Part shown: positions 890 to 43,179 of the stretch, one piece after another
How the letters are laid out: each line of letters starts with the position of its first letter
How positions within the stretch are numbered: position 1 is the stretch's first letter
Source: Candidatus Nanopelagicales bacterium
GTDB lineage: Bacteria; Actinomycetota; Actinomycetes; S36-B12; GCA-2699445
Direction of reading: 5' to 3'
Length of the DNA stretch: 43,179 bases
NCBI GenBank assembly: GCA_030700225.1
Contig: JAUYJT010000039.1
Span: forward strand, 1-43,179
Position numbers and translations under genes: made by a program
The notes under the pieces: generated by a model
What the model was told of the DNA's origin: nothing
Database searches by the model: none
What the model saw: only the letters and a program-made list of their open reading frames with translations

Positions 890-2095
890 TCAGAGCCCGA
901 AAAGCTCCCGGGCCGCTGACTCCAGCGTGCTCGTCTCGTCGTTGCTGATCGCCCGCCGTGGGGAGTGCAGGATGCTCGCGGTGAGTCTGTGGGAGGCTTG
1001 CCTGATCAGCTCACCGTCGCCGACTTGGGAATCGCCCAGCCGACGGACCAGCCATTCCAGTTCAGCTGTGCAGCGTTCCTCCACCGTCTCGGCCAGAGCC
1101 ACCATGGTTGACCCCGAGTCCCGCGTCCGCAGCCATCGGCAATACGAGTGCCCGGACTCATGCACCAGGGCATCGATCCTCGTGAGCAGGCTCTCGGGAA
1201 GGCTCGCCTGCCGTCGCCAGGCCAGATCATCGATCGACACGCATCGTCCCCCGAGTTGGAGCTGGAGGGACATTGGCATGGCGGGAGGGCTGGAGAGGTC
1301 GACGATCACTGTGCCGCCAGCAGTTACCAAGGGCGCCATGTCTAAGGCAGCGGTCCACGTGCCCGCAATGGCCACCACAACACCAGCCAGCGGCTGCGGC
1401 GGCGGGGAACCTGTCCAGTCAGCGGTGTCGCCGCCTACAGCTCGAGCCAGCGCTTCGGCTCGCCCCCGCGTGCGATTGGCAACGAACACGCGGGCCCCGC
1501 GCGCCGCAGCCGCTCGGGCCGCCAGTCTGCCCATGGTTCCGGCCCCGACTACAAGGACGTGCTTGCCGGTCAAATTCCCTGAGACCGACTCGATCTCGTC
1601 CAGCGCCGCGTCACCAAGGCTTGGCCTGGGCCCAGGGAGCCAGGAACGCGCGCTCCGGCCAGCTCGCAACGCGACCTGGAACAGCCGATCCAGCGCGGGG
1701 TCCAGTGCCACCTCACGGCACCTGCTGGTGTAGGCCTCACGGATCTGATGGAGCACCGCGTCCTCGCCGAGGACCGCGCTGTCAAGCCCGCAGGCCACTG
1801 AGATCAAGTGGCGCACTGCCTCGACGTCCATGAGATGTTCGCAACCGGCAGGGGGTTCCGGGAGGCGTTCGATTCCGTCGGCTCCGGCTGCGAAGTAGAC
1901 CTCCACACGATGGCAAGTCCGGACTAGGAGAGCCCTGCCGTCGGGGGAGCATGCACTGAAATCAGCGGCGAACCGCTCGCGGGCGACGCTGGAGACCCGG
2001 CCGGCACGCGCAACCATCGCCCGCACCACGACGGGCTGCGCACCTCGACAGGACAACTGTTCCGCGCTCGGAGCAAGCTGAATGCTCATCGGCAA
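890..2095 (-). CDS. hemA: Glutamyl-tRNA reductase (divergent HemA)
   Basis: HemA reduces glutamyl-tRNA(Glu) to glutamate-1-semialdehyde with NADPH, the first committed step of C5 heme synthesis in the cytoplasm. The thioester-forming Cys is C61 in TCHRVEVY (usually TCNRVEVY). H96 in EAVRHL and the block GLDSAVLGED follow at about 96-112. The NADPH-binding GAGTMG is at 184-189 and VANRT shortly after. The C-terminal dimerisation helices are present. The usual N-terminal GLSHRTAP segment is replaced by VVVRAMVARAG, so this copy is diverged. The start is TTG 2095 (GGGA 6 nt upstream) or ATG 2089. It begins 1 nt after the stop of the regulator gene and ends the cytochrome operon, which suggests a dedicated heme precursor supply. 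Whether a standard hemA exists elsewhere cannot be seen. Confidence 0.9.
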   Translation of the reverse strand: MPMSIQLAPSAEQLSCRGAQPVVVRAMVARAGRVSSVARERFAADFSACSPDGRALLVRTCHRVEVYFAAGADGIERLPEPPAGCEHLMDVEAVRHLISVACGLDSAVLGEDAVLHQIREAYTSRCREVALDPALDRLFQVALRAGRSARSWLPGPRPSLGDAALDEIESVSGNLTGKHVLVVGAGTMGRLAARAAAARGARVFVANRTRGRAEALARAVGGDTADWTGSPPPQPLAGVVVAIAGTWTAALDMAPLVTAGGTVIVDLSSPPAMPMSLQLQLGGRCVSIDDLAWRRQASLPESLLTRIDALVHESGHSYCRWLRTRDSGSTMVALAETVEERCTAELEWLVRRLGDSQVGDGELIRQASHRLTASILHSPRRAISNDETSTLESAARELFGL

Positions 2096-2096
2096 C

Positions 2097-2729
2097 TCAC
2101 ATCCCTGCCGTTACCGGAACCGATTGATGGCCGACGATCAGACGGCGCAGCAGATCGTCCGTCAAGCGCAGCGCACTTAACCCGAACTCGCACGTGGCAG
2201 CAGTTCCGAGGCCATGCCGCCGAGCCAAGTCCGTCAGTTCTCCAATCAGGGCTCGCCTCATTCGTAGGCAGAGCGCCACAACCGAATCCAAGGAGGCGCC
2301 GCAACTCGCGGCCAGGGCACCCAACTGACCTGCGGCCGCAACGGCATCATTCCCCATCTGTGCCCCGGGCGCGTCCAGCCCGGAAAGCAGTCGCTCGACC
2401 ATCGTGACTCCAAGGTCACGCCACTGCTCCCCATCTTCGCGCGCGGCAGCGGTCCACTCCTCAGGTGACTGGGCCAGCTCACGCTCGCACACCCGCAAGA
2501 CACGCCCCGGTGTCACACCAAGCTGCTCCAGCCGGGGCCGCTGGCCTGGGACAGGTGGCAAGAGCCCGAGGACGGCGGACCGGGCGAAGCGACGATGCCC
2601 GCCCGGTGTCGTGAACGTCCGAAGCTCCCCAGAGCCGCTCCACCGCCGCAGCGTCGCTGGCGAAACACTGAGCAGGTCGCAGACCTCCCCGACACTCAGC
2701 CACTTTTCCTCTTCGATGTTGCTGATCAC
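2097..2729 (-). CDS. Excisionase/MerR-type HTH regulator with C-terminal helical domain
   Basis: Residues 10-56 (WLSVGEVCDLLSVSPATLRR, then TPGGHRRF) form a winged helix-turn-helix of the BldC/excisionase (HTH_17, MerR-like) kind. GHRRF is the characteristic wing. The remaining 150 residues are predicted all-helical; segments such as LAASCGASLDSVVALCLRMR and LRLTDDLLRRLI recall RsbR/PucR-type globin-like sensor domains (inference, not a firm match). I chose GTG 2729 because AGGAGG lies just upstream of it. A longer frame reaching 2885 would overlap the cytochrome gene and has no such site. It lies between the decaheme cytochrome (47 nt upstream) and hemA (1 nt gap), so it may control heme supply or this operon. 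The ligand is unknown. Confidence 0.8.
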   Translation of the reverse strand: MISNIEEEKWLSVGEVCDLLSVSPATLRRWSGSGELRTFTTPGGHRRFARSAVLGLLPPVPGQRPRLEQLGVTPGRVLRVCERELAQSPEEWTAAAREDGEQWRDLGVTMVERLLSGLDAPGAQMGNDAVAAAGQLGALAASCGASLDSVVALCLRMRRALIGELTDLARRHGLGTAATCEFGLSALRLTDDLLRRLIVGHQSVPVTAGM

Positions 2730-2775
2730 TTGAGCCCTCCTCTCGCTGTCCAGCGATACCACAGCACGAACCCGG

Positions 2776-4347
2776 CTAAGGAGACCGTGCCGAGGCCTGG
2801 GGCAGCCCGGGCGACAACGACGACGTAGGCAGTACATCTCCCGCGTGACATGTAGCGCAGTAGCTGGGCTTGTGGCAGAGCGCACAGCTCTGCACCCCTG
2901 ACTTGCGGATCTGAGCCGCGTGGCCGTAGATCATGTCGTCATGGCTGATGTTGATCGCTCCGGAGGCGTGGCAATTCTCGCAGTAGCTCCGCGAATGGCA
3001 GGCTCCACATGATGTGCCGACCGGGCTGGCGCTGGACGCGGCACGCTTGTGCTTGAAGACCCAGAGTGCCCTCTTGTGATTGGCCGGCTTCGAGCCAAGC
3101 GGGAGTTCAGACACCTCGGGACCGACCTGCGGGAACGTGTGACACGTCGAGCATGACGACTTTATTGGTTTCGCGGTCGCCTTGCCCTTCTCAACCAGGT
3201 AGTGCGCACCATCATGGCACCGCAAGCAACCGGGGCTGGCCTGATGACCAAGGTTGTTCGGATAGGTTCGAGCCTGAACGTCCATCCATGGCGTGGCGAG
3301 GATCCGGTACTGGACCTTCAGCTCGGCCACCGCCGCATCGATCTGGGCCGTGCGGGTCTTGGCTACGAGCGGATACTTCGTGGCGTAGCCCTTGACCAGT
3401 CCATCGAAAGCTTCGTCCGCAACCTCATCTGATGAGTATCGCCCATTCAGCAGCGCCACGCTGTCCCGTTTGATGAAGGGCAGGTCGCCGCTGATCCGGC
3501 CGTCGGCGATGGCTGCGTCTACGGCGGCGCCCGTGTCCGGCGTTGAGTGCCCGACCCGGTTGTGGCAGTCGACGCAGTTCATCTTCTGCGGCAGGTCCTG
3601 CTCCAGGAGGCTCGGTATGTTCAGGGCCACCTTGCCGGTCGCGTCAACCTGGGATGCCTTGACGTACGTCTTCGTGGATCCGCCAGGAGGCGTCCACACA
3701 ACCAAATCAATGTCCTGCTGCGCCTCGTCGCCCGACAGATACCAGATGTCCTGGTCGACGTGCCAGTGGGCTCCCCTGCTCCCCGAGCTGGTATCAGCGC
3801 CGCCCCGCGGGCCACCGTTCGCATTCACGGCCACTGCCACCATCTCCCGCGTGTTGGCCTTGTCAGGCTTGAACGTGGGGCGAAGGATCAACTGGAGCGG
3901 ACGATCAGCCCTCGTCACCTGATCCAGCGGGTGGCAAGCGATACAGGTGTCTTGGACTGGGGGGAGCTTGGCGCGGTTGATCACAATCGGCCTCGGATAC
4001 TCGTCCGTGGCTACGAGGTACAGCTCCCTGGTTCCGCCGATCTTCGCCTTGATCAGGCCCATGATGCCGGGCGTGATGTGGCACTCACCGCAGTTCACGT
4101 CTGAGTGCACTCCGGCCTGGTTCGCCTTCACCTGAGGTTCCATGGCGTGACATGTACTGCAGAACTCGGTCGTTTCGCTGAACTCACTTGCCCAGATACC
4201 CCCGAACGTGTGCACAGCGGCGAGTCCGCCCGCCAGCACGAGCATCACCAGCAGTCCGCGATGTGTTCGCGGGACGATTCGGGCGCGCCAGCCACGACGC
4301 GCTGCGGGTTCTGCGGCGTCTTCAGTCTGATCCGGCGGCAATGTCAT
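2776..4347 (-). CDS. Decaheme NapC/NirT-type membrane cytochrome c
   Basis: The 523-residue protein has one N-terminal membrane anchor (about 31-53) and ten CXXCH motifs, at about residues 63, 86, 135, 258, 374, 399, 447, 456, 488 and 497. The first two, with FCSTCHAM and CGECHITPG, match the NapC/NrfH quinol-dehydrogenase module, including a Met shortly after the first heme as in NrfH. The NapC family oxidises membrane quinol and passes electrons to periplasmic partners. Six further hemes in the C-terminal half are unusual for NapC and may replace a separate partner, as in the larger NapC-like cytochromes of metal-reducing bacteria. A 120-residue heme-free stretch (140-257) separates the first three hemes from the rest. 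Its ATG overlaps the resA stop (ATGA), implying coupling. The electron acceptor is not evident. Confidence 0.9.
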   Translation of the reverse strand: MTLPPDQTEDAAEPAARRGWRARIVPRTHRGLLVMLVLAGGLAAVHTFGGIWASEFSETTEFCSTCHAMEPQVKANQAGVHSDVNCGECHITPGIMGLIKAKIGGTRELYLVATDEYPRPIVINRAKLPPVQDTCIACHPLDQVTRADRPLQLILRPTFKPDKANTREMVAVAVNANGGPRGGADTSSGSRGAHWHVDQDIWYLSGDEAQQDIDLVVWTPPGGSTKTYVKASQVDATGKVALNIPSLLEQDLPQKMNCVDCHNRVGHSTPDTGAAVDAAIADGRISGDLPFIKRDSVALLNGRYSSDEVADEAFDGLVKGYATKYPLVAKTRTAQIDAAVAELKVQYRILATPWMDVQARTYPNNLGHQASPGCLRCHDGAHYLVEKGKATAKPIKSSCSTCHTFPQVGPEVSELPLGSKPANHKRALWVFKHKRAASSASPVGTSCGACHSRSYCENCHASGAINISHDDMIYGHAAQIRKSGVQSCALCHKPSYCATCHAGDVLPTSSLSPGLPQASARSP

Positions 4348-4940
4348 CCGCGGATCCCCTCCAGAGCCGCATCCATTTGCTCGGGAGACATGGCTCCTGT
4401 CGTTGTGGCTCGCAGCACACCCGAACGGTCGATAAAGAAGTGGACCGGTATCCCGAGCACACGGTACTGGGACGCGATCCGGGTGTCGGGATCGGCGATG
4501 GCGGGGTAGGTTAGCCCGACCCGCTCCGTGTAGTCGCGAACCGCAGCGGAGTCCTCGGAGATGTACACCGAGATGACGACCGGACCGGACTCCCCTGCCC
4601 GCTCATACGCAGCTTGGATATCCGGCGCCTCCGCTTGGCAAGCCGCGCACCAGCTTGCCCCGAACGTCAGCCAGACCGGACGTCCGCGGTAGTCGCTCAG
4701 CGACACCTGGCGACCTTGCACCGTTTGAGCGGTGAAGTCAGGGGCCGACTTGCCGACCTCAGGTGCCTCTCCAACCGCTCCGGTCAGCTCGATCGCGCTC
4801 ACGCCGGGATCAGTCGCGGTCCTGGTTTGCACAATGTAGGCGGCCGCCAGCACGAGCAGCGACGTCACAGCTAGCACGAGCAGTGACCCACCGCGGCTCT
4901 CCCGCAGCTTCTCCCGCCGTCCGGCAGTTGTCTTGTTCAT
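4344..4940 (-). CDS. resA: Thiol-disulfide oxidoreductase ResA/TlpA family
   Basis: A single N-terminal membrane anchor (about 20-38) is followed by an extracytoplasmic thioredoxin fold of the AhpC/TSA-Redoxin type. The active site is WCAAC (C99 and C102 counted from the TTG at 4943). The family's cis-Pro lies in GIPVHFFID. ResA keeps the cysteines of apocytochrome CXXCH sites reduced before heme attachment, taking electrons from CcdA. The start is set at ATG 4940, preceded by AGAGG, rather than the adjacent TTG 4943. It lies between ccsA and the decaheme cytochrome gene and overlaps the latter by 4 nt. Family assignment is secure; the exact substrate is inferred from the neighbours. Confidence 0.9.
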   Translation of the reverse strand: MNKTTAGRREKLRESRGGSLLVLAVTSLLVLAAAYIVQTRTATDPGVSAIELTGAVGEAPEVGKSAPDFTAQTVQGRQVSLSDYRGRPVWLTFGASWCAACQAEAPDIQAAYERAGESGPVVISVYISEDSAAVRDYTERVGLTYPAIADPDTRIASQYRVLGIPVHFFIDRSGVLRATTTGAMSPEQMDAALEGIRG

Positions 4941-4976
4941 CAAAGCCTCTTCCGGCCGCGGCTGCGGCGCCTCAGA

Positions 4977-5870
4977 CTACGCGTACGCGTGCAAGCCCCC
5001 GAAGAACAGATTCCCGAAGAAGGTCAGTAGCACAGCGCCGAAGCCCAGCAGGAGTAGCCAGGCAGCGCGCCGACCCCGCCAGCCACGAACAACTCGAGCG
5101 TGCAGATAGGCGCCATAGATCAGCCAGGTGACCAGGGATGCGGTTTCCTTGGGGTCCCAGCCCCAGTACGTCCCCCAAGCGACCTCGGCCCACACGGCGC
5201 CAAGAAGAACCACCATCGTTAGCAGTGGGAATCCGATGAGGATCGCTCGGTATCCGATCTCCTCAAGGAGGGCCGGTTTCGGCAGCCTTCCGCCTCCGAA
5301 TCTTGGCTGGATCAAGTACAGCACGGCCGCCCCGCCAGCCACGGCGAACGCACCATAGGCGACGATCGCCAGTGCCACATGGACGGTTAGCAGAAGGTTG
5401 TTCTGCAGGGCTGGAACCAGCGGTGCGGTGCTTGCGCCAAGCGTCATTGCGTACAGCAGCAGTGCTGATGCGACAGGCAGCACCAACAACGCCAGGGTCC
5501 GGACCCGGTAGCGGTATTCGAAGTACACGTACACCGCGATGATGCCCCAGGCGAACGCGACTGAGAACTCGTACTGATTGGAGAAGGGTCCGTGGCCGGT
5601 CACCAGGGTGAGGAACAGTAGTGCGGCGGTAAGCAGCACAAGCGCCAGCCGAACCAGCGCCGTCCCGTAGTAGGCCAGGCCGCGCCGCGACCGCTGCTCT
5701 CCGGACCGACTTGGCGGCACTCCTCCGCTACCACGACTCCCGGCTCCAACAGCGACCCGTTCTCGCTGGGCCGTGGTCCCGGCTGTTGCCAAGGCGACCA
5801 CGTACAACACAAGGGCCACTAGCGCCATAAACAGACTCGCTAGCACACAGAACTCGGAGAGTTTCAACAT
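4977..5870 (-). CDS. ccsA: Cytochrome c synthase subunit CcsA (ResC)
   Basis: This 297-residue multi-pass membrane protein has the tryptophan-rich WWD-type signature WGTYWGWDPKETAS (232-245), which binds heme at the outer membrane face in System II cytochrome c synthases. H164 and H257 are good candidates for the conserved external heme ligands. CcsA works with CcsB/ResB to carry heme out and ligate it to CXXCH. A low-complexity cytoplasmic stretch (about 40-62, rich in G, S and R) lies between the first two membrane segments. It starts 5 nt after the stop of ccsB, in the usual ccsBA order. The gap of 36 nt to resA shows no promoter I can recognise. Confidence 0.93.
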   Translation of the reverse strand: MLKLSEFCVLASLFMALVALVLYVVALATAGTTAQRERVAVGAGSRGSGGVPPSRSGEQRSRRGLAYYGTALVRLALVLLTAALLFLTLVTGHGPFSNQYEFSVAFAWGIIAVYVYFEYRYRVRTLALLVLPVASALLLYAMTLGASTAPLVPALQNNLLLTVHVALAIVAYGAFAVAGGAAVLYLIQPRFGGGRLPKPALLEEIGYRAILIGFPLLTMVVLLGAVWAEVAWGTYWGWDPKETASLVTWLIYGAYLHARVVRGWRGRRAAWLLLLGFGAVLLTFFGNLFFGGLHAYA

Positions 5871-5875
5871 CTTTC

Positions 5876-7345
5876 CTACTTTCGCTGGGGATCTGGCGCG
5901 CTGGCCATCGCCTCGATGTCTCTTGCCAGTGACTTGAACTGCGCCTGAAACGCCAAGTCCCGGCGCTGGGACGCTGCCATCTCGACCGTCGACCCTGTTC
6001 TGGACTCGCCTACTCGCAGCCAGATCCGACGGTGCGGGAAGAAGAACACCATGAAGATCCCGACGACCAGGAAGAATGACCCGATCCAGACGAATACGGC
6101 ACCGGGATCCTGGGTGACGATCAACCCGGTGAACTGCCTTGGGCGCTCAAACGTGTACTCAATGCCGTCGATGACGGCAGGCTTCCCTTGCGAAAGGACC
6201 TTCAGCGCGAGGGGGGACTCACCATCGTCCCGGTAGATCTCGAGTTGCACCTGACCCGGTCTGATGTTCGGATCCACCTCACCCGAGGCTGGCACCACCA
6301 CGAACACACGCAGACCCTGATCCGGCAGGGCGAACTCACCGACGTTGTGGACACCGTCGTCGGTCCCCCAGGCCAGCGGCACGCCTTCGTTGAAGAGAAC
6401 CCGCCCCGAGGAGTCCCTGACGCTCATCGCCGCCGCCAGGCCGAAGAACGACTGGTAGAAGGAGACCCCTGAGTATCTCATCGGCTCATTCACCCGCACG
6501 GTTTGCTCCTGCACGGCAACGCCGTCTTCGTACAGAACCAGCTGACTCGCGTAGTCGGCGGGCGACCCGTCCGGGTAGTAGGAGTCACTGAAGGAACGCG
6601 CCAACACTGACAGCCCGGTGTCGTGACCCACGTCAATCGTTGAACCCACCGGGACGGCTAACTGCTCCTCCTTGAATCCGGTCGTGGCCGTGAGGAAGAC
6701 CCCGATCAGGATCAGCACGAAACTCAGATGCGCGATGATGGTCCCGAACGGGCCCCAACGGAAGCGCTCGGCGTACAGGTTTCGCGTGTTGGCCCCGCTC
6801 GGTCCGTCCAGAACCCGGTAGTGGCGGCGCTTGAGGACCTTGCGGACCCGGGCCAGTCCATCGTCCGGCGGCACATCCACTTGTGCGCTGGCGCGCAGAG
6901 GCGCGTGTGCGAAGTAGGAGTCGCTCTTCCGGGTCCTTGCATGAGTCGCGTGCTTCCACAGCCGCGGCGCCCGGTTCACGGAGCAGGCGATGATGCTGGT
7001 CACCAACAACATGGCGATCAACTTGAACACCAGCGATGAGAAGACCGCGAAGAGCCCGAGCCTGTCGATGATCGGGGTCCATCCCCCGAATATCTCCCTG
7101 GTTGAGTCGAGCCAATCTGCGTACAAGCCCGGGTCCTCGGCCAACTCAGCCGGGGCTTGTCTGATCAGCGTCCCGGCCAGCGTGAGAATGCCCAGCCCGA
7201 GAATCAGCGCGAGCCCCGTCTTCATAGAGATGAAGAACCGGAACAGCTTCTCAAAGACGTCCGCCGGGGCCACGGCGATCGAGTCGGCCAGCCCGTCCGG
7301 TGAGTCGCCCAGGCGGGAATCGGCTCGCGAAGTTACTTGGCTCAT
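5876..7345 (-). CDS. resB: Cytochrome c biogenesis protein CcsB/ResB
   Basis: ResB family protein of 489 residues. Membrane segments near the N-terminus are followed by a large extracytoplasmic domain and a last membrane helix (FVWIGSFFLVVGIFMVFFFP) near the C-terminus. ResB pairs with CcsA in the System II heme lyase complex. The start is ATG 7345 because GAGGAG lies 5 nt upstream; the frame stays open to 7396 but that would overlap ccdA. It starts 10 nt after the ccdA stop and ends 5 nt before ccsA, so the set is clearly one operon. Confidence 0.92.
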   Translation of the reverse strand: MSQVTSRADSRLGDSPDGLADSIAVAPADVFEKLFRFFISMKTGLALILGLGILTLAGTLIRQAPAELAEDPGLYADWLDSTREIFGGWTPIIDRLGLFAVFSSLVFKLIAMLLVTSIIACSVNRAPRLWKHATHARTRKSDSYFAHAPLRASAQVDVPPDDGLARVRKVLKRRHYRVLDGPSGANTRNLYAERFRWGPFGTIIAHLSFVLILIGVFLTATTGFKEEQLAVPVGSTIDVGHDTGLSVLARSFSDSYYPDGSPADYASQLVLYEDGVAVQEQTVRVNEPMRYSGVSFYQSFFGLAAAMSVRDSSGRVLFNEGVPLAWGTDDGVHNVGEFALPDQGLRVFVVVPASGEVDPNIRPGQVQLEIYRDDGESPLALKVLSQGKPAVIDGIEYTFERPRQFTGLIVTQDPGAVFVWIGSFFLVVGIFMVFFFPHRRIWLRVGESRTGSTVEMAASQRRDLAFQAQFKSLARDIEAMASAPDPQRK

Positions 7346-7355
7346 TCGTACTCCT

Positions 7356-8090
7356 CTACAGTCCCAAGTTAGGGAAAAATGCAGCGGACTTGGCAAGCAG
7401 GTTCGTGATGAGCAAGAAGCCCATCAGGATCAGCAGCCCTCCCGTTACGAGCGAAACACCGTCATGATGCCGACGGAACCAGGACAGCCGCCCGTTGATC
7501 TCGCTGGCTCCAACGGCCACGAGGATGAAGGGGGTGCCGAGTCCGGCGACGTATGCGATCAGCAGCAGAGTGCCTTCGAGCGCGCTGGCGGTCACTGAGG
7601 CGAGCCCGATGATTCCGCCCAGTATCGGGCCGATGCATGGAGTCCAACCGGCGGCGAAGGCGACCCCCAGCAGGGAGGACCTCGCCAGGCTCGGATTTCT
7701 GGGACCAGGCTCCGGGGCACCCGGCCCGGCCATCGCTGGCACTCGCACCGGCAAGCGAACGTCGCGGTACAGCGCGGGAATGGAGATCAGACCCGCCACA
7801 TGCAGCCCGAGCACGATCAACACTGCCCCCCCCAGGACCCGCAGCACACCAACGTAGTCCCGCAGCACATACCCGACGAACCCGACAGAGGCCCACAGCG
7901 TGACGAACACAACCGCGAATCCCAGGACGAAAGCGAGGGCCTGACGAAAAGCGACCCGCCGTTGCGGGCTCTCGGCGGTGCCGGTGCCGGCCATGTAGCC
8001 GACGTACGCGGGCACCATAGGCAGGCAGCACGGTGAAGCGAACGAGACGATCCCGGCCAAGAACGCTACGGCAAACGTGATGCCCGACAT
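7356..8090 (-). CDS. ccdA: Thiol-disulfide transporter CcdA (DsbD transmembrane family)
   Basis: Six-helix membrane protein of 244 residues that carries reducing equivalents from cytoplasmic thioredoxin to ResA. The two redox cysteines lie in the pseudo-repeats: SFASPCCLPMVPAY near the N-terminus and GWTPCIGPILGG in the second half. The first has an extra adjacent Cys (CC). A Pro- and Gly-rich loop (VPAMAGPGAPEPGPRNP) separates the two halves. The start is ATG 8090, 2 nt after the stop of the TPR gene; the frame is open upstream but codes for nothing recognisable. It completes the System II set CcdA-ResB-CcsA-ResA. Confidence 0.92.
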   Translation of the reverse strand: MSGITFAVAFLAGIVSFASPCCLPMVPAYVGYMAGTGTAESPQRRVAFRQALAFVLGFAVVFVTLWASVGFVGYVLRDYVGVLRVLGGAVLIVLGLHVAGLISIPALYRDVRLPVRVPAMAGPGAPEPGPRNPSLARSSLLGVAFAAGWTPCIGPILGGIIGLASVTASALEGTLLLIAYVAGLGTPFILVAVGASEINGRLSWFRRHHDGVSLVTGGLLILMGFLLITNLLAKSAAFFPNLGL

Positions 8091-8092
8091 CT

Positions 8093-8944
8093 CTACTGCC
8101 CGATCCCCGGAGACTTGCCCTTGCCGAGGCCATCCAGATGCGTAGAGACGGTCTTGGCGAGATCCGAGCCAGGATCGATCTTGACAACCTTCTGCCACTC
8201 TCTTTTAACTCGCGCGAGGTCCGGTGGCTCTTGGCTAAGGTAGAGGAATCCCAGATCGTAGTGCGCCTCCGCGAGCCCAGGATCCAGTTTCGTGACCTTC
8301 AGCCATTGCTTCTCAGCACCGGCGGAGTCGCCCTGGTTGAACAATGAAGCACCGAGCAGCAGCCTGGCACGCTCTGACTTCGGGTTGACGGCCACCGCCT
8401 TCCTGCCAAACTCTCCGGCCACGCGGTAGTCACCGGCCTGGAAGTAGAGGTCTGCCAGCTTCAGCAGCGACTTCGCATCCTGCGGATTCTCGGAGATCTT
8501 GCGCATCAACGGCGCCACTTGGGCCTGATCCACCTCCGCCGGGGCCTGAGCAGCCGAATCCGTGAGATCACCGGAGACGGCGGGGATATCGGAACTACCG
8601 CCGACCTTGTAGACACCGAAGACAATGACTACAGCTGCTGCTGCCGCACCGACCTTCCACCATTTCCTCGAGTTCAGCAGCCGACGTCTCGTCAGATTGC
8701 CGCCTCGGCGCTCCTTGGGCGAGCACGCATGGCGCAGCAGCACGTATGCCTCTTCAGCCTCCGTCCTGCGCATCTCGGCCCAAGGGACCAAATTAGGAGG
8801 AACGCTGTCAAGGAAGTCGGCGCACTCGCTGTGCGCCGTTTCGATGTCGTGCCAACTCGCGGGAGCCGAGAGTCCAAGGCGACTCAGCAGTTCCATCTCG
8901 AGCTCGTCGTCCTGGTCAGCTCGCGTCACACGTATCCCCAGCAT
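8093..8944 (-). CDS. Membrane-anchored TPR protein, CcmI/CycH-like
   Basis: A cytoplasmic N-terminal region of about 90 residues is followed by a single membrane helix (about 97-115, VGAAAAAVVIVFGVYKVGG) and an extracytoplasmic domain with at least three TPR units (for example NPQDAKSLLKLADLYFQAGD and NPKSERARLLLGASLFNQGD). This layout resembles CcmI/CycH apocytochrome chaperones, which hold the apoprotein C-terminus for heme ligation. Such proteins are typical of System I, so pairing one with System II genes would be unusual. It is the first gene of the maturation sub-operon and is preceded by 176 nt that contain a palindrome. The role is inferred from position. Confidence 0.7.
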   Translation of the reverse strand: MLGIRVTRADQDDELEMELLSRLGLSAPASWHDIETAHSECADFLDSVPPNLVPWAEMRRTEAEEAYVLLRHACSPKERRGGNLTRRRLLNSRKWWKVGAAAAAVVIVFGVYKVGGSSDIPAVSGDLTDSAAQAPAEVDQAQVAPLMRKISENPQDAKSLLKLADLYFQAGDYRVAGEFGRKAVAVNPKSERARLLLGASLFNQGDSAGAEKQWLKVTKLDPGLAEAHYDLGFLYLSQEPPDLARVKREWQKVVKIDPGSDLAKTVSTHLDGLGKGKSPGIGQ

Positions 8945-9001
8945 GCGTTATCCCGTCCTCAGGTGATCTGACGATCCCTAACTATTGTCGAAAAGAGCGA
9001 T

Positions 9002-9045
9002 TTGACATGGTATCCGCCGAAAGACATGTCTTGGATAGATATGTC
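9002..9045. promoter_or_regulatory. Palindromic operator candidate upstream of the maturation genes
   Basis: The 12-bp perfect palindrome AAGACATGTCTT lies at 9021-9032. Half-site-like GACAT/ATGTC elements occur on both sides (GACAT 9004-9008, ATGTC 9041-9045). It is in the 176-nt gap between the eight-motif cytochrome stop and the TPR gene start, about 77 nt upstream of the latter. A weak minus-strand -10 (TACCAT, 9012-9007) would place the palindrome over the -35 region. No other function is visible in this gap. The binding protein is unknown; the HTH regulator or the response regulator in this block are candidates. Confidence 0.4.
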
Positions 9046-9120
9046 CCCCCCCTGGGCTAGCCGGTTAGATCCACACAATCGCCCAATCTATGCCACTTGG
9101 CAGGTATCGCGTCCGTCGGC

Positions 9121-11514: not shown

Positions 11515-11580
11515 CGTTCGCTCCCCAGCCGGTGTGGGGCACCGCAGCTCTAGCGACGATGCCCACACACACAGCCTGCC

Positions 11581-12549
11581 TTACGGTGTGTATCCCGAGG
11601 CGTGGCAGACCCGGCAAGTACCCCGGTTGTTGATCCGGAGAAGCTTGCTGTCCCCTGTATCCACAGTTCCGTCCGGCAGGTTCACAACTGACGAGTAGAG
11701 CCCTGGCATCGATGCGTTCGACCCGTGGGCCGTATGGCAGTTCGCACAGTTGCGGGCCTTGCCGCTGACCGCGGTGCTATCGCTGGTGTGCCTGTACGCG
11801 TACACCGCATCGCCCGAGTCGGTCTTCGCCTCATGATCCGCCAGATACCTGGTGTGGCACGTGCTGCACCAACTCGCTATCTTCTCCTGGAACTCCGACG
11901 CGTTCACATCTTGCGTGACCCAGTAGTTGGCGGTCGTGTAGACCTTCGTGGCCGTATCGGCGATCTCCACACCCGGTGAGACTGCCCCAGACTCCTTCGG
12001 AATCGCCCTGAGGATCCGGTACAGGCCGTTCCCGTGCGGGTCATGGCATGAACCGCACGAGAGGCTGACGGATTTCCCGTAGTTCACAGTCGCGCTGATC
12101 GCGCCGTTGCCCCATGCCATCTGACTAGATCCGTCGACGCTGTGATTCGAATTCGTGGCTGTGCCTGCAGCGAGCACACCTATCGTCGTCCCGGTCGCAC
12201 CCGCGCCCGGGGTGTACACAGGATTGGCGGCATCAATCAACGCGTACTCGAACCCACCGCCGCGCAGTCCCGTCTCCCCTCCCGCGTAGCTGCGCCCGTT
12301 CTGGACATCCGTGGTCGCGCCAGCGCCACCACCGCCATGACAGCTGTAGCATATCTGCGACTGAGGATCCTTCAGCAGATGTGACGCTTTCGCCGAATGC
12401 ATTCTGTGGCAACTGGCACAGTTGTCAACCACTAGGCTGCTGTTCTTCACGTGTGGCCCGTTATCGGCCGACGCGGGTCCGGCGAACGCCATAGCCAGCG
12501 CCACACCTCCACCCGCACCCAACAGCAAAAGTGCGCTCCTTACCTTCAC
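11581..12549 (-). CDS. Secreted hexaheme cytochrome c, doubled-CXXCH family
   Basis: A clear signal peptide (1-28, ending ASA) is followed by six CXXCH motifs at about 44, 67, 165, 228, 268 and 312 in a 322-residue protein. Extra histidines near the motifs (CASCHRMH, CGSCHDPH, CANCHTAH) can supply bis-His ligation. No membrane anchor or catalytic site is seen, so it is an electron carrier. Six hemes in a small secreted protein rich in loops is also the plan of Geobacter OmcS, but sequence identity with OmcS cannot be judged here. The GTG start at 12549 has a near-perfect AAGGAGGT 5 nt upstream, the best ribosome site of the block, which suggests high expression. It is preceded by the NHL propeller gene (65-nt gap). 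Confidence 0.9.
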   Translation of the reverse strand: MKVRSALLLLGAGGGVALAMAFAGPASADNGPHVKNSSLVVDNCASCHRMHSAKASHLLKDPQSQICYSCHGGGGAGATTDVQNGRSYAGGETGLRGGGFEYALIDAANPVYTPGAGATGTTIGVLAAGTATNSNHSVDGSSQMAWGNGAISATVNYGKSVSLSCGSCHDPHGNGLYRILRAIPKESGAVSPGVEIADTATKVYTTANYWVTQDVNASEFQEKIASWCSTCHTRYLADHEAKTDSGDAVYAYRHTSDSTAVSGKARNCANCHTAHGSNASMPGLYSSVVNLPDGTVDTGDSKLLRINNRGTCRVCHASGYTP

Positions 12550-12614
12550 AGTCCACCTCCTTGGTCCGGCTCTTTCTCTTTCTCTCGCATCCTGTCATCC
12601 ATTGGATCTCCCAC

Positions 12615-13679
12615 CTAGTACCCCCAAACCTGTACCCGGTCATTCACCCTATCCGTAATGTAGACGTGCGACCGAGCGTCCGCCGCGGCACCGTTCGGGA
12701 ACTCGAAAAGCCCCTCACCGCTACCCTCGGCACCGAACAAACCTACTAGTCGCGGCCCGGTTTCCTGGGAAAGACCAGCGATGTCGTATAGCTGAACTCG
12801 CTGGTTGGTCGTGTCCGCGACGTACAGCAAGTGCCCGTCCGCAACAGCGACTCCCCGGGGCATAGACGTGTCGCCCGGACCGGACCCCCGCTTGATCTCC
12901 GCGACCACGTTCCCCTGACCGTCGAAGAGCAGAACCCGGCCGTTGTTGCTGTCACTGACGATCGTGTTCCCGGCGCCATCCACAGCTACGCCGTTCGGGA
13001 AGGAGGTCAGTCCTGGACTGCCCAACTCCCGGATCAGTTCCCCATCTGGGGAGAACACCAGGATCCGCTGCTTGCCGGCCACGTCCGTCACGGTCACGTT
13101 CCCCGCTTCGTCGAAGCCAATGCCCAGGGGCTGCCACTTCTTGCCGCGCGCCTTCGGAATGAACTGGCGCAGGTAGTTGCCGTCGCGGTCGTAGACATAG
13201 ATCTCCCGCGCGGTCCTGTCGGTGACATAGACATCCTCGGTCAGCGGGTTCACAGCGACGTAGACGGGCATGTGGCTCGGCGCACTTGAGTCCGAGGGGA
13301 CGAGAACACCAACCTCCTGACCAGAATCATCAAACACCTTCGTGGTGCGGTCTCCGCCACTCTGGGTTACGTAGATTCTGTCTCCCGACGGGGTCACAGC
13401 GACTCCGAGCGGCTCGGAAACTCCGTAGACGCTGAACTTGTACGCCGGTACCCGTTCCCAGTCGAGGCCAGGAAGCTGGGACAACGGTTTGCGGTTCACC
13501 AGATACCAGGTGAACAAGGCCGCCAGCATCGCGGCGATCACGATCATCACACCCAGCAGCCTCAGCTTGCGCCGCCTTGCCTCCAGTTCCTCAGGCGAGA
13601 CTTCGTCCGCGGCACTGGTGTCCGGCACTGGCTCAGGAGAATCGGCGTCGAGCGGGGGATTGTCGAAGAAGACGGACAT
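12615..13679 (-). CDS. Membrane-anchored NHL-repeat beta-propeller protein
   Basis: A short cytoplasmic N-terminus rich in D, E and P is followed by one membrane helix (about 42-61, LGVMIVIAAMLAALFTWYLV) and about 280 extracytoplasmic residues forming six NHL units. Typical units read PLGVAVTPSGDRIYVT, FPNGVAVDGAGNTIVSDSNN and FPNGAAADARSHVYITDRVN, each followed by an R-V-x-x-[FY] strand. NHL propellers are binding scaffolds. Placed directly before the hexaheme cytochrome gene, it may dock or guide secreted cytochromes (inference). The ATG starts 1 nt after the TPR gene stop, so the two are coupled. Confidence 0.85.
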   Translation of the reverse strand: MSVFFDNPPLDADSPEPVPDTSAADEVSPEELEARRRKLRLLGVMIVIAAMLAALFTWYLVNRKPLSQLPGLDWERVPAYKFSVYGVSEPLGVAVTPSGDRIYVTQSGGDRTTKVFDDSGQEVGVLVPSDSSAPSHMPVYVAVNPLTEDVYVTDRTAREIYVYDRDGNYLRQFIPKARGKKWQPLGIGFDEAGNVTVTDVAGKQRILVFSPDGELIRELGSPGLTSFPNGVAVDGAGNTIVSDSNNGRVLLFDGQGNVVAEIKRGSGPGDTSMPRGVAVADGHLLYVADTTNQRVQLYDIAGLSQETGPRLVGLFGAEGSGEGLFEFPNGAAADARSHVYITDRVNDRVQVWGY

Positions 13680-13680
13680 G

Positions 13681-14655
13681 TCAGCCTTTCCCCTCGTCGG
13701 CGGTCCCGTGACCAGTCGGAAGCGTGACCTGAGTCAGGCGGGCCAAGGCAGCGCTCGCGGTCTGGTTGCGCGGGTCCTTGGCGACTGCCTGGCGGTACCA
13801 GTCCTGTGCTGCGTCCCCGTCTCCCCGGACTTCGGCGACCATGCCCAAGCCAGTCATGGCCGAGGCTGCCACCGAGGACCCGGTCAGGGTCAGGAGGCGC
13901 GATTCCGCCTCGGGGAGTCGGTTCTGGGTGACGTCCACCATCGCACTCGCGTACGCGGCCTCGTCGGACCGGCCTATCGACTCAGCGGCCTGCGCCAGGG
14001 CGGCGTACGGTTCTGTCCAGCCCTGCGGGACCAGTGCCACAGCGGCGGACAGTGCTTCCACGGCCTTCTTCCCGGAACCCCGCTGCAGCAGCGCCTGGCC
14101 AAGAGAGAACAAGGCATCCGCATCCGTCCGATTGATCGCGAGCGCAGCTCGCAGGCTCGCGATTGCCTCATCCGTGGCACCGCGCCGGAGCAGGATGACA
14201 CCCAACTGGTACTGGGCGGATTCTAGCTGCTCGTCGACCGGGGCGAACTCACCTCCGGCTGACGCGCTCGTGATCTTGCGCAGGGACTCCTCGGCCAAGT
14301 CGTCTTCGCCCATGGTCGCCAGGAGGATGCCCTGGCCCAGCAAGGCTGCCCGGTGCTCCGGTTCCGCCTTCAGGATCTCGTCGTACTGTGCCAGTGCGTC
14401 GTCAATCCTGCCGTCCTGCCGGTAGACTCCCGCGAGCTGCAACCTGGGGTTCACCTCATTGGGGCTTTGCACCACAGCATTCTCGGCGGCCTCGATCTGC
14501 CGTTCGGTCAGCGAAGGACCTGCGGTAACCCTCTGATCAAGGTAGTAGAAGACGCTGAACAGGCCGAGCGCGACCACCAGCGCAATGCCGCTGATCCTGA
14601 TCAACCGTCCCAGGGTGGCCTCGGAAAGGCCCTCGGTACGTCTCACCAGATCCAT
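13681..14655 (-). CDS. Membrane-anchored TPR protein
   Basis: One membrane helix (about 20-40, LIRISGIALVVALGLFSVFY) is followed by an extracytoplasmic TPR solenoid of about six units (for example NPRLQLAGVYRQDGRIDDAL, EPEHRAALLGQGILLATMGE, NRTDADALFSLGQALLQRGS). It probably acts as an assembly or docking factor for the cytochromes, since it leads the NHL-cytochrome sub-operon. The start is ATG 14655; AAGGAGG lies 12 nt upstream, farther than ideal, but no other start codon fits. The 157-nt gap upstream (14656-14812) has an AT-rich stretch (CAATAAATT on the minus strand) that could be a promoter; I could not define hexamers with confidence. Confidence 0.8.
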   Translation of the reverse strand: MDLVRRTEGLSEATLGRLIRISGIALVVALGLFSVFYYLDQRVTAGPSLTERQIEAAENAVVQSPNEVNPRLQLAGVYRQDGRIDDALAQYDEILKAEPEHRAALLGQGILLATMGEDDLAEESLRKITSASAGGEFAPVDEQLESAQYQLGVILLRRGATDEAIASLRAALAINRTDADALFSLGQALLQRGSGKKAVEALSAAVALVPQGWTEPYAALAQAAESIGRSDEAAYASAMVDVTQNRLPEAESRLLTLTGSSVAASAMTGLGMVAEVRGDGDAAQDWYRQAVAKDPRNQTASAALARLTQVTLPTGHGTADEGKG

Positions 14656-14812
14656 ATGCGCGTCAACCCTCCTTAGCGGAGCCGCCACGTCTCGTCGGCG
14701 CCAGGCCGACCACAAGCAGAAGCACTTGCCTCCACGCTCAATTTATTGCCTGGGGGCTTGTCCGGCACATCCACCGGGCGGCACATTTACGGTACAGGCT
14801 CACCCGCATGGC

Positions 14813-15178
14813 TCATCCAGAAGGGCTACGATCTGGTTCACCGCCGGGGAGGGAAGGCAATCCATCGCGGATCGCTTGGACAATCTCGTCGATACTTGCG
14901 CAGGCAGGCCGGGTCAGACCCGGTAGCGCCGACATGCTGATGTCAATGATGCGGGCACCTGGCGCCATCGCGCTGAGGTCCGCTTCGCTGGGTCCGTCGC
15001 CTATTTCGAAGATCACGACGAACGGACCCAGCGACAGGGCCTTGCGAACCGCCTGCGAGTCCTGGAGCAGGACTGGGCGCACATCCGCGCCGGATCCCCG
15101 GATCCACTTGGCCAGGCCCTCTCCGAGCAAGGGATGCCTGTAGAGGATCACGACCAACCGGTCCGGCAAGACCACCAT
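14813..15178 (-). CDS. Degenerate receiver-like protein
   Basis: The 121-residue protein resembles the receiver domain of LuxR-type regulators. VVILYRHPLLGEGLAKWI matches the first strand and helix (normally VDDHPLFREGL) and VVIFEIGDGP matches the third strand. The acidic pair is replaced by YR and the phospho-Asp position by Glu, so normal phosphorylation is unlikely. There is no output domain. The start is ATG 15178 (or TTG 15181) with AGGGGGTG upstream. It lies between the response regulator (149-nt gap) and the TPR gene. It may be a pseudo-receiver that binds a partner, or an uncharacterised small protein. Assignment is tentative. Confidence 0.6.
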   Translation of the reverse strand: MVVLPDRLVVILYRHPLLGEGLAKWIRGSGADVRPVLLQDSQAVRKALSLGPFVVIFEIGDGPSEADLSAMAPGARIIDISMSALPGLTRPACASIDEIVQAIRDGLPSLPGGEPDRSPSG

Positions 15179-15326
15179 CAAGCACCCCCTGACGGCTCTC
15201 CCTCATGGCTTCGACTTCAGTCCAATTGGGCAATGACGTTACGCGGAACGGGACGGCGTGGCTATCCCCCACCAGACACATTCCACGCGGGGCCACGATC
15301 ACCCGGCAGGCTGTCAGAACCAGGCA

Positions 15327-16004
15327 TCAGGGCGCCGTGCCGCTTCGCCCCAGACCATGCCTTACGACGTACGCGGCCGCCTGAGTCCGATTCTCAAGCT
15401 GCAACTTCTCCAACGCGTTGTGCACATGATTCTTGACCGTACCTTCGGTTATGGAAAGCGCCCGCCCAACTTCCTTGTTGCTCATGCCTTCAGCCACGAG
15501 TTGCAGGATTTCCAGTTCCCGCCTCGTGATGGCCGACGTCTCGCCGGTGGCAGGCGACACGGCGGGAATGTTCCTGACCTCGGCCAGGACCCGGGCCGCG
15601 ACCGCCGGTGACAGCGCGGCCTCCCCGCGCATCGTGCACCGCAGCATCTCGAACAACTGTTCCGGGCGAAGGTCCTTGAGCAGGTATCCGCTCGCCCCGA
15701 ACCGGATCGCGTCCAGGAGATGCTCGTCCGAGTCGGACACGGTCAGCATCACAACCTTCACCGCAGGCAGTTGCTCGCGGATAGCTCGCGTTGCCTCAAC
15801 TCCGTCCATCACGGGCATCTCGATATCCATCACGACGAGGTCCGGGCTCAGGGCGTTGGCTTTCTCGATCGCGTCCAGCCCGTTCTCGGCCTCTCCGACA
15901 ATGACCATGTCCTGCTGTTCGGCGATCAGAGCGGCTATCGCTCCCCGGAACAACGGCTGGTCGTCAACGAGCAGAATGCGCATTCGCCCATCGGTGGGTT
16001 GCAT
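15327..16004 (-). CDS. NarL/LuxR-family response regulator
   Basis: The 225-residue protein has an N-terminal receiver with the acidic pair in LLVDDQPLF and phospho-acceptor D60 in VVMDIEMP. T and K of the receiver are in MLTVSD and YLLKDLRP. The C-terminal LuxR HTH (about 160-220) reads ITRRELEILQLVAEGMSNKE and then VKNHVHNALEKL. I chose ATG 16004 because GAGGAG lies 5 nt upstream, which makes it overlap the kinase gene by 41 nt; a later ATG at 15983 has no good site. It is the cognate partner of the adjacent kinase and the natural candidate to control the cytochrome genes. Confidence 0.92.
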   Translation of the reverse strand: MQPTDGRMRILLVDDQPLFRGAIAALIAEQQDMVIVGEAENGLDAIEKANALSPDLVVMDIEMPVMDGVEATRAIREQLPAVKVVMLTVSDSDEHLLDAIRFGASGYLLKDLRPEQLFEMLRCTMRGEAALSPAVAARVLAEVRNIPAVSPATGETSAITRRELEILQLVAEGMSNKEVGRALSITEGTVKNHVHNALEKLQLENRTQAAAYVVRHGLGRSGTAP

Positions 16005-17829
16005 CGTTCTCCTCAAATCCACCCGAGCTACCGTTCGTCGTCACCCAGTGCGGTCCCTGCGACCTGGGAATCTCCGCGATGATTCGCGTGCCCCGGCCCC
16101 TGGCTGCGTCGACCGTCAGGGTACCTCCGATCAGCGACATCCGTTCAGTCATCGTCGACAGACCGAACGTCTCTCGGTGCGACCGATCGGACCTCAACTC
16201 GAATCCACTCCCGTCGTCCTCCACCTCAAACACGGTGGCGAACTGCGTCTCCCGTACCCGGACTGTCACACTCCTCCCCGCTGAGTGCTTGCGGACGTTC
16301 GTCAGGGCTTCCTGAATGACCCTGATCACCTGGACCTCGCAGCGCGGCGTCAGTAGCGGATCGAGATCGATCGCGCATTCCAGCGAGGTTGACATACCGG
16401 TGTTGCGACTGAAGTCGGAAAGATAGTCCCGCAAACCGTCCAGCAGTCCCCAGTCGGCGCGCCCGGAGTCCCGAAGACCGAGGATGGCTTCCCGGACATC
16501 CCGGTAGCCCTCCCCGCAAAGATCCGCGAGATCCGTCAGTTCAGAGAAAACGGAATCGAGTTCGGCTACTCCCGGTCGCGACTGAAGTGCGCGCAAGCGG
16601 AGTTGGCAGGCTCCGAGGATCTGGGCGAGACTGTCATGCATCTCGCGAGCGATCCGGTTCCTTTCATCGATGATGGCCTCCTGACGTTCCTGCTCCCGTG
16701 ATGAAGCGCTGGTCAGGGCGATGGCCGCCAGACCGGAAAGCGTCTCGAGGAACCGACCATCTTTGGATGAGAATGGTTCATCCGCGCGCCGGGCGATCCA
16801 GATATCCCCGATCGTGCAGCCACGCGCCTGGATCGGAACCGTGAGAGTCGTGCGCCATTCGGATGATGCGCGGATCGGGCAGACCACATTCCCCTGATGC
16901 ACGTCATGGAACTGATCGTCCCGCGAGGTGATGCAGGCAGCCGCATCCTCAAATGCCTGGTAGAGCTGGATGACGTCTCCGGCGCGGACGGTGAGGGAGT
17001 CCAGATCGGCCACGGAAAGGGCGGCCTCATCGCAGTTGATCAGTTCCCGTGCGTCATGCACCACGGCCGCGAGAATGTCCGGTGGCGCGACCTGGCGGGA
17101 GATCTGCACGAGCACGTCGTACAGTGCGTGGCCCTCCCTCTGCCGACGGCGAAGGTCGGCCAGAATCTGGTTCGCCTGGATGGCCTCCGCGATCAGGTGT
17201 CCGAGCCTGTGAATGGTGTCGACGGTCAGGGGACTACCCAGCGGGTCCAGAACCACTCTCATGCGGCCTACGGTCGTCAGTCCCGCGATCAACGGTATGT
17301 CGACAACTGTTGCTTCATCGGCGGCGGGCCATAAGGCCCCCGGCGCGTCGCCGTGTTCCGACTTCCACGCCAACTGCTCGATGCCGTCGCACACGTGCCC
17401 TTCAGCGGTTGGCTCGACGGAAATCAGGACTTCACGGGCGCCGCTGGCTTCCCTGACGCATTCACTCGCGGCATCGGCCAGAGCCGGGAGTGAATGCACT
17501 CCCTGGATGGCGTTCGACAGGTCGCTGAGTGCCGCGAGCTCTTGGTTCTGCTCCACGATCCGCCGTTGGATCTTGTCAACGGAATGGAAGATCCCGTAGC
17601 CAAAGGCGAGCGCCGGGATGAATGACACGCCGACGAGAAGCCACAGGACCGGAGTTCGGATCAGATCCGACAGGAAGCTGTCCGCCGCGTAGTTGACCAC
17701 TGCCAGCTCAAGCACCACCAGGAACCCGAGCGGTAGAACCATGGCGATGAGCTTCAGCCGACGCATCTCCGACTGGCCAGTGGCTGCGGAAGCCACCATC
17801 AAGCATCCGCCCAAGCGCTTGAGGACCAC
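15964..17829 (-). CDS. NarL-type sensor histidine kinase with GAF-like domains
   Basis: Two N-terminal membrane helices with only a short outside loop (about 25-50 and 60-84) are followed by a coiled region, two GAF-like cytoplasmic domains (about 105-225 and 240-375), a HisKA_3 dimerisation helix with the phospho-accepting His in REMHDSLAQILG (about residue 398), and an HATPase domain (EALTNVRKHS, EDDGSGF, GLSTMTERMSLIGG). The lack of a large outside domain suggests it senses a cytoplasmic or membrane signal such as redox state, through GAF. The second GAF holds cysteines (NCDEAA, AACITS, VVCP, RGC) that could bind a cofactor. The likely start is GTG 17829, with GAGGAG 5 nt upstream; ATG 17799 is possible. 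Confidence 0.9.
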   Translation of the reverse strand: MVLKRLGGCLMVASAATGQSEMRRLKLIAMVLPLGFLVVLELAVVNYAADSFLSDLIRTPVLWLLVGVSFIPALAFGYGIFHSVDKIQRRIVEQNQELAALSDLSNAIQGVHSLPALADAASECVREASGAREVLISVEPTAEGHVCDGIEQLAWKSEHGDAPGALWPAADEATVVDIPLIAGLTTVGRMRVVLDPLGSPLTVDTIHRLGHLIAEAIQANQILADLRRRQREGHALYDVLVQISRQVAPPDILAAVVHDARELINCDEAALSVADLDSLTVRAGDVIQLYQAFEDAAACITSRDDQFHDVHQGNVVCPIRASSEWRTTLTVPIQARGCTIGDIWIARRADEPFSSKDGRFLETLSGLAAIALTSASSREQERQEAIIDERNRIAREMHDSLAQILGACQLRLRALQSRPGVAELDSVFSELTDLADLCGEGYRDVREAILGLRDSGRADWGLLDGLRDYLSDFSRNTGMSTSLECAIDLDPLLTPRCEVQVIRVIQEALTNVRKHSAGRSVTVRVRETQFATVFEVEDDGSGFELRSDRSHRETFGLSTMTERMSLIGGTLTVDAARGRGTRIIAEIPRSQGPHWVTTNGSSGGFEENDATHRWANAHSAR

Positions 17830-17973
17830 ACCCACTCCTCAAATAATCCCCAGCTTTGAGGATACCACCGCTGCCGGACCCGACCTTGGTCACCGACCGC
17901 CGCGTCAGGCACACTTGTGTGTATGATCTCGCCGTTGTCCGGAAGGTCCCCGAGTACGGTTCGGGTGGGCTGA
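17830..17973. promoter_or_regulatory. Divergent intergenic region, kinase operon and radical SAM gene
   Basis: This 144-nt gap must hold the promoters for both directions. A plus-strand TATGAT at about 17919 is the best -10-like hexamer for the radical SAM gene, but no matching -35 stands out. GGTGGG just before GTG 17974 is its likely ribosome site. On the minus side GAGGAG (17841-17836) serves the kinase. I see no clear palindrome. Confidence 0.35.
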
Positions 17974-41979: not shown

Positions 41980-42023
41980 TCCGCGCCCGGATGCGGAATC
42001 TGCGGCGGCCGGGAGTTCAGGCG

Positions 42024-42503: not shown

Positions 42504-42632
42504 GATCACTCCCCTTACCAGGACGCAGCTGATCGGGGCCGACTCGGCCGCAGTGCTGCTCGCGTCCTGGTCTCTGACGCCAGAGCCGCGTCGAAAGTTC
42601 CCGGCACTGGCCGCCGACCGGGCGCCCAGGCA

Positions 42633-43034: not shown

Positions 43035-43179
43035 CAGCGCTGTTGACCGCCAGGCTGGCTGAGGATGATGCCGTCACGGTGGGCTGATCTCTCAGTGACG
43101 TGAGGGCCGCATGGGACCCCGTCATGTGGTTGTTCATGTGCGTCGTCATAGTGAGGATGTAGCGAAGGATGGGCGACGG
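43035..43179. other. Right edge, no supported gene
   Basis: A short minus-strand frame from 43149 runs out of frame into copy 2 of the lipoprotein. It has no ribosome site and no recognisable sequence. I cannot tell whether it was once the 5' part of that gene. Confidence 0.4.

Follow-up and report, generated by a model that had tools for sequence, protein, structure and literature searches.

What is a run of multihaem cytochrome genes doing in a Candidatus Nanopelagicales bacterium, and where would its electrons go? We addressed this question on a stretch of 43,179 nucleotides (GenBank assembly GCA_030700225.1, contig JAUYJT010000039.1, here C39), below called the window, which begins at base 1 of the contig. 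The host genome comprises 2.6 Mb in 85 contigs and is 95.7% complete, and what is said below of genes present in or absent from this genome refers to searches of that assembly. Between positions 890 and 17835, fifteen minus-strand genes follow one another with short gaps or overlaps, forming an operon-like block that reads, from 17835 to 890, kinase, response regulator, an open reading frame (ORF) of 122 amino acids (aa), TPR2, NHL, hexahaem, octahaem, TPR1, CcdA, ResB, CcsA, TlpA, decahaem, helix-turn-helix (HTH) regulator and HemA (Table 1). A first-pass annotation, made from the letters alone, had described a single minus-strand block with three cytochromes of 10, 8 and 6 haem motifs, two TPR proteins, an NHL propeller, a DNA-binding regulator, a haem-synthesis enzyme and a two-component system. 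All of the gene content it named is present, and domain matches confirm the TPR and NHL proteins, the HTH regulator, the LuxR-type regulator and the GAF kinase; it had passed over the conserved 122-aa ORF and had placed the end of the block at 17829, whereas the longest ORF of the kinase gene reaches 17835. The CXXCH counts are not due to chance, because shuffled versions of each cytochrome contained on average 0.01-0.03 CXXCH and never more than 1. On the evidence set out below, we consider it probable that the block is a dedicated electron conduit, leading from quinol to the outside across a Gram-positive-type envelope, possibly with the hexahaem cytochrome as a filament.

Profile homology of the hexahaem cytochrome to OmcS

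When the PDB was searched with a family profile of the hexahaem, built from 14 homologues of Actinomycetes and Chloroflexi, the first match was OmcS (1.8e-11), the nanowire cytochrome of Geobacter (PDB 6EF8/6NEF). With 70 rows in the profile, OmcS again led all PDB entries, its 4.7e-16 being about seven orders of magnitude better than the next match, MtrA (4e-9; entry 6r2q, the Mtr complex, which the chain table labels otherwise); octahaem nitrite reductase came after that (1e-6). Family profiles alone recover this relation; a single-sequence phmmer search with the hexahaem did not find OmcS. In a control for motif similarity over 328 multihaem ORFs from all loci of our genome collection (L numbers below), most proteins outside the family were matched via the first doubled CXXCH only, and the best near-full-length match was L168 of Candidatus Eisenbacteria, itself a clear OmcS homologue (1.6e-38 to PDB OmcS), which the profile covers end to end (positions 12-293 of 294). 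Under closer inspection of 77 aligned hexahaems, all six CXXCH are present in 77/77, and exactly six further histidines (His) are conserved: H5 in 74 rows, H144 and H226 in 76 each, and H23, H108 and H247 in all 77. OmcS has 12 His ligands, one of them contributed by the neighbouring subunit (PMC6584659), and the hexahaem set of six CXXCH and six distal His, a complete one for six bis-His haems, equals this published number. The His that comes after the first CXXCH (CHxxH; position 16 in OmcS) is present in 77/77 and is a candidate for the inter-subunit ligand. Judged by these profiles, the hexahaem belongs to the OmcS superfamily as a distant relative.

An AlphaFold model computed with 70 sequences reached a predicted local distance difference test score (pLDDT) of 77 and a predicted template modelling score (pTM) of 0.80; with 14 sequences the pLDDT was 36. 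The 70-sequence model aligned best with OmcS, at a VIA-align Z of 8.2 over 201 of 294 residues and 4.1 Å, followed by MtrA at Z 5.6; six chains were aligned in this way, Foldseek alone being negative, and we take the fold comparison as supportive, not decisive. The likeness to OmcS comprises six CXXCH in the same order, the 12-His set, the CHxxH at the first haem, profile homology along most of the protein and the best structural alignment of the model, together with an NHL gene that adjoins a bona fide OmcS homologue (L224). The hexahaem differs in being some 110 residues shorter, in its low identity and in its Gram-positive-type host, with a block that includes neither an outer membrane nor PpcA-type periplasmic carriers, and hexahaem filaments are a possibility.

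The same conduit could also operate with a hexahaem that never polymerizes and acts as a monomeric shuttle in the cell wall or at the surface, its relation to OmcS being one of fold only. OmcS polymerization needs subunit contacts, which are unreadable from this alignment, and the lowest confidence of the model falls on its first 30 residues, the site of the presumed inter-subunit His, even though the invariance of that His in the family and the NHL partner common to the hexahaem and an OmcS homologue argue for more than a shared fold; the tandem paralogues of Anaerolineae (below) may, for their part, be carriers of different potentials. We regard a monomeric shuttle as a serious contender, although one with less than an even chance.

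OmcS homologues in diverse bacteria have already been published (PMC12954529; PMC10954620), and a Coriobacteriales bin from a bioanode, S27, holds one with all six CXXCH and a reported identity of 28% (PMC7399161). The latter is likewise actinobacterial but belongs to another class, and no module or partner genes were described for it. In our collection, the hexahaem-family unit also occurs within giant proteins of 12-16 haems (L207:6398-10980 and L157:7688-10819), which suggests fusion or duplication of nanowire-type units in one chain.

Partner genes conserved beside the hexahaem

We then asked which genes accompany the hexahaem in other genomes. Of 60 genomes from the order of the host, four contain the decahaem, and these four alone contain the hexahaem; the seven remaining genomes of the same family have neither. 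The arrangement kinase-regulator-ORF-TPR2-NHL-hexahaem-octahaem-TPR1-decahaem is kept in L019/L020 and L025, and Intrasporangium calvum carries the same genes with the regulators in reversed orientation. Among Anaerolineae, 19 of 20 loci show TPR2-NHL-hexahaem, often with tandem hexahaems, and the remaining one is interrupted by a contig end. Other actinobacterial classes show the same three genes in two settings. In one they accompany proteins of 12-14 haems, genes of the cytochrome-biogenesis-like kind and a Rex-like regulator; in the other they are joined by formate dehydrogenase, a cytochrome b and proteins of 7 and of 14-20 haems, in one case also by a NiFe hydrogenase. In L224 an NHL gene lies immediately upstream of the OmcS homologue, and in L225 of a hexahaem. 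By contrast, about 69 ImcH-like loci that lack the hexahaem showed no NHL homologue; since the gene stands beside the hexahaem across groups, NHL and TPR2 appear to follow the hexahaem and not the quinol oxidase, and they are most likely assembly or docking factors of the hexahaem. In the one Geobacteraceae metagenome-assembled genome searched there was no NHL match, and an NHL gene beside omcS in Geobacter was not confirmed, the published account listing GSU2505 as hypothetical.

Predicted entry and onward transfer of electrons

The decahaem finds NrfH as its top PDB match (7e-9) and has a single, N-terminal membrane helix (residues 33-51); ten further His are invariant in a four-member alignment, enough for ten bis-His haems. 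A scan of the genome collection yielded 529 relatives, with genes of Acidobacteria, Geothrix, Ignavibacteria, Bacteroidetes and Chloroflexi among the best, a range that corresponds to the ImcH-like group. With ImcH of Geobacter and its one-helix homologues it shares the NapC/NirT-type N-terminal part, the C-terminal multihaem extension and a length of about 500 aa, and the homologues of I. calvum and Anaerolinea thermophila were listed as one-helix exceptions in the published ImcH survey (PMC6295460). Unlike Geobacter ImcH, it has one membrane helix in place of three, and ten CXXCH with no CX3CH or other haem motif; because of these absences we file it as ImcH-like only. By its matches, the decahaem is an ImcH-like quinol dehydrogenase and the predicted membrane entry point of the module.

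The eight motifs of the octahaem are seven CXXCH and one CX3CH (CTLTCH), the latter kept in four other full-length orthologues. Nothing marks this protein as an enzyme, since it has ten further invariant His and no CXXCK. In a comparison with solved terminal reductases of the OcwA/MtrC type, its family profile found no PDB match below E=0.03, and a partial match to an MtrC/MtrF domain scored 34.1 against the Pfam cut-off of 30. A beta-barrel of the porin-cytochrome (MtrAB) type was not found in the block, all of whose sizeable coding-strand ORFs are assigned to other families.

Maturation, haem supply and regulation

All four usual parts of System II maturation (ResB, CcsA, CcdA and a thioredoxin-like protein) are in the block, as the first-pass annotation had said in calling the set complete and the module self-contained. 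That description holds for the window but not for relatives, in which the same cytochromes accompany System I (Ccm) genes. System II stands beside the module in the window, L026, L028 and L029, and System I (CcmA-B, CcmC, CcmF, CcmE) in L018/L027 and L025, probably also in L017/L024, which shows that cytochromes and maturation machinery have been exchanged independently. The block departs from System II as usually constituted by the additional TPR1, which is 54% identical over 142 aa to a C-terminal extension of CcmF in genome G036 (L018:7262-10093); because its counterpart is fused to CcmF there, TPR1 is probably a maturation helper.

In actinobacteria, System II genes commonly lie near hem genes, so one might see here an ordinary maturation locus for aerobic c-type cytochromes to which some extra cytochromes were added. 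However, the ResB proteins of relatives share no more than 25-34% identity with that of the module, beside which no second ResB was found in the genome; its gene is placed between multihaem genes, and in related modules System II is replaced by System I. We therefore give this explanation hardly any credence.

HemA carries all three GlutR domains yet scores below the NCBIfam cut-off, and is thus a divergent form of the haem-synthesis enzyme. The HTH ORF overlaps the decahaem gene, with its true start probably inside the ORF, and a homologue follows the decahaem gene in L026, L028 and L029. The HTH-HemA pair also adjoins the module in L223 of Anaerolineae, followed by hemC and hemD. We considered whether HemA begins a full haem operon cut by the contig end; an operon of this kind is present beside the module in L223, but bases 1-890 of the window hold no minus-strand ORF of at least 80 aa, and we rejected the idea. 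The neighbourhood past HemA lies outside the sequence covered. The plus-strand TIGR04053 radical SAM protein next to the kinase gene is 38% identical to a homologue within the run of haem genes beside the module in L223, and is possibly associated with the module. As for the 122-aa ORF, it has no Pfam match, but homologues occupy the same position in L025 and L226, a similar-sized ORF is present in L019, and a receiver-like ORF fills the same slot in L030, L205 and L206 of Chloroflexi; it is probably a degenerate receiver domain.

Direction of electron flow and candidate acceptors

Put together, menaquinol would be oxidized at the membrane by the one-helix decahaem, and electrons would pass from its haems to the octahaem and the OmcS-type hexahaem, which would conduct them across the cell wall and further outward, perhaps in filament form. 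ResB, CcsA, CcdA and TlpA, with TPR1, would attach the haems, HemA would raise the haem supply, and expression would be controlled by the HTH protein together with the kinase-regulator set, while NHL and TPR2 would be membrane-anchored, hexahaem-specific partners. The proposal of the first-pass annotation, a conduit from quinol to the outside without a known terminal reductase, thus gains support from the NapC/NrfH-type decahaem and the probably secreted hexahaem of the OmcS superfamily, and no terminal reductase was found in the block.

Several observations weigh against such a conduit. For this organism the case is built from genes. The identity to OmcS is low, and CXXCH motifs supply part of the profile score; OmcS has 407 residues against 294 for the hexahaem, and H226 has no aligned counterpart in the OmcS homologue L168, where a His is nevertheless close by (LVHPSG). 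A Foldseek search of the PDB with the hexahaem model gave nothing at E<0.001, so the structural match depends on an aligner applied to six chains as a second look. The cell also has a simpler respiration at its disposal, since its genome encodes the respiratory nitrate reductase NarG (G000:C85, L124). Finally, the cytochrome module and HTH gene of I. calvum PheN6 are followed immediately downstream, on the same strand, by an nrfH that scores over the NCBIfam cut-off and by an NrfA-like gene (L028:12234-14280).

The last of these points raises the question of whether the module delivers its electrons to NrfHA or another soluble reductase and belongs to nitrite ammonification. A reductase beside the module in relatives, which the first-pass annotation had named as evidence to the contrary, was found in PheN6 only, and another strain of the species, I. 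calvum C5, ammonifies nitrite (PMC6349771). However, NrfA (Cytochrom_C552) had no match in our genome, although the E. coli control was detected, nor was it found in the sequence covered around other module loci. Because the other actinomycete loci are without nrfHA in the covered sequence, and because NrfH is itself the quinol dehydrogenase of NrfA, nitrite is not a general acceptor of the module, and a role in ammonification seems very unlikely. A search for COX1 also gave no match in the genome, but the control search missed Corynebacterium glutamicum as well, which we take to have cytochrome aa3, and we draw no conclusion on oxygen respiration.

Electrons might instead travel inward, from a partner cell, formate or hydrogen oxidized outside, reduced iron or a cathode, to menaquinone, and NarG could then serve as a sink inside the cell. 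In other actinobacterial classes the hexahaem-NHL-TPR unit indeed adjoins an exported formate dehydrogenase-like enzyme (L154:6343-13944, L158:5379-10651, L159:5811-10841 and L161:9671-15227), in L154 also a NiFe hydrogenase, so that extracellular enzymes are possibly wired to the multihaem chain. The block itself contains no donor enzyme, and ImcH homologues have so far come only from Fe(III)-reducing bacteria (PMC6295460). We judge an inward conduit to be unlikely here, and retain the outward route. Parvivirga hydrogeniphila is an obligate Fe(III) reducer that forms pili-like surface appendages on ferrihydrite only (PMC9686372), and it probably carries this hexahaem family: we tentatively assign to it genome G223, whose locus L161 has the hexahaem with NHL, TPR2 and the formate dehydrogenase-like enzyme. 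Like ours, the clusters described for it and the Anaerosomatales are multihaem clusters of a Gram-positive-type cell, there an Fe(III) reducer and with a molybdopterin oxidoreductase; they differ in being linked to formate dehydrogenase, and OmcS and NHL are unnamed in that work (PMC9686372).

Probable exchange between phyla and wider significance

The six hexahaems of Actinomycetes fall into a single clade (100/99), which joins 25 Anaerolineae proteins (100/98), and those of other actinobacterial classes branch elsewhere. Even sampling of 396 genomes on each side found the family in 14 of the actinobacterial and in 32 of the Anaerolineae-class genomes. Because of this grouping and of the common gene set, which includes the HTH-HemA pair and TIGR04053 beside the module in L223, a transfer of the module between Chloroflexota and Actinomycetes is likely; the tree is rooted for drawing only, and the direction of transfer is unreadable from its rooting.

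An OmcS-like gene in Actinobacteria (PMC7399161) and an ImcH homologue in I. calvum (PMC6295460) were already known. In the literature, which we covered in part, we found no paper on the combined module, the NHL and TPR partners or the exchange of maturation systems. The module would provide a route of electron export in Actinomycetes, a class that does not usually figure in lists of bacteria reducing metals or electrodes, and NHL and TPR2 are two candidate partner proteins that follow the cytochrome across phyla. With the module in a cultured actinomycete, I. calvum, both the assembly of OmcS-type nanowires and their possible use by Gram-positive bacteria become testable. It is tempting to speculate further that OmcS-type conductive filaments stand on a high-GC Gram-positive cell, and that NHL and TPR2 are a dedicated nanowire assembly or docking machine in several phyla, joined to varied electron-input modules (ImcH-like quinol oxidase, cytochrome b with large multihaem proteins, formate dehydrogenase, hydrogenase) and spread by transfer between Chloroflexota and Actinomycetes; we offer this as a tentative extension, more doubtful than the conduit itself.

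Features of the window

Table 1. Genes of the multihaem block and the adjoining radical SAM gene
Feature	Position	Strand	Evidence
HemA, divergent glutamyl-tRNA reductase, haem supply	890..2095	-	GlutR_N, Shikimate_DH, GlutR_dimer over Pfam gathering scores
BldC/excisionase-type HTH regulator	2097..2885	-	HTH_17 1e-10
Decahaem NapC/NirT, putative ImcH-like membrane quinol dehydrogenase, 523 aa	2776..4347	-	10 CXXCH; Cytochrom_NNT 2e-11
TlpA/ResA-like thioredoxin (System II)	4344..4943	-	AhpC-TSA 2e-26, CXXC motif
CcsA/ResC haem handling protein (System II)	4977..5870	-	Cytochrom_C_asm 2e-44
ResB/Ccs1 (System II)	5876..7396	-	ResB 9e-75
CcdA/DsbD_TM thiol-electron transporter, start probably internal	7356..8198	-	DsbD_TM 6e-13
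TPR1, membrane-anchored, probable cytochrome c maturation helper	8093..8944	-	TPR; likeness to CcmF extension
Octahaem, putative secreted/surface cytochrome, 815 aa	9121..11568	-	7 CXXCH + CX3CH; Paired_CXXCH 5e-15
Hexahaem cytochrome assigned to OmcS superfamily, 322 aa, N-terminal export signal	11581..12549	-	6 CXXCH
NHL beta-propeller, membrane-anchored	12615..13679	-	NHL 2e-23; helix 39-57
TPR2, membrane-anchored TPR protein	13681..14715	-	TPR_16 2e-23; helix 38-56
122-aa ORF, probably degenerate receiver domain	14813..15181	-	position-conserved homologues
LuxR-type response regulator	15327..16022	-	Response_reg 3e-29, GerE 6e-19
GAF-containing histidine kinase	15964..17835	-	HATPase_c 6e-12, HisKA_3 2e-11, GAF 2e-7
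TIGR04053 radical SAM/SPASM protein, related to haem-synthesis AhbD/NirJ	17974..19122	+	TIGR04053 462 bits vs cut-off 395

Promoter and terminator predictions gave no excess over shuffles, and a search of Rfam gave no match. On contigs C23, C63 and C80 of the same genome, matches to haem-like patterns turned out not to be multihaem genes. Near the contig end, the window contains an imperfect direct repeat in two copies (42003-43040; 567-609 bp apart, blocks 82-95% identical), which lies in no convincing gene, and between the contig start and hemA there is a tandem repeat of 19 bp in 3.6 copies (401-469).

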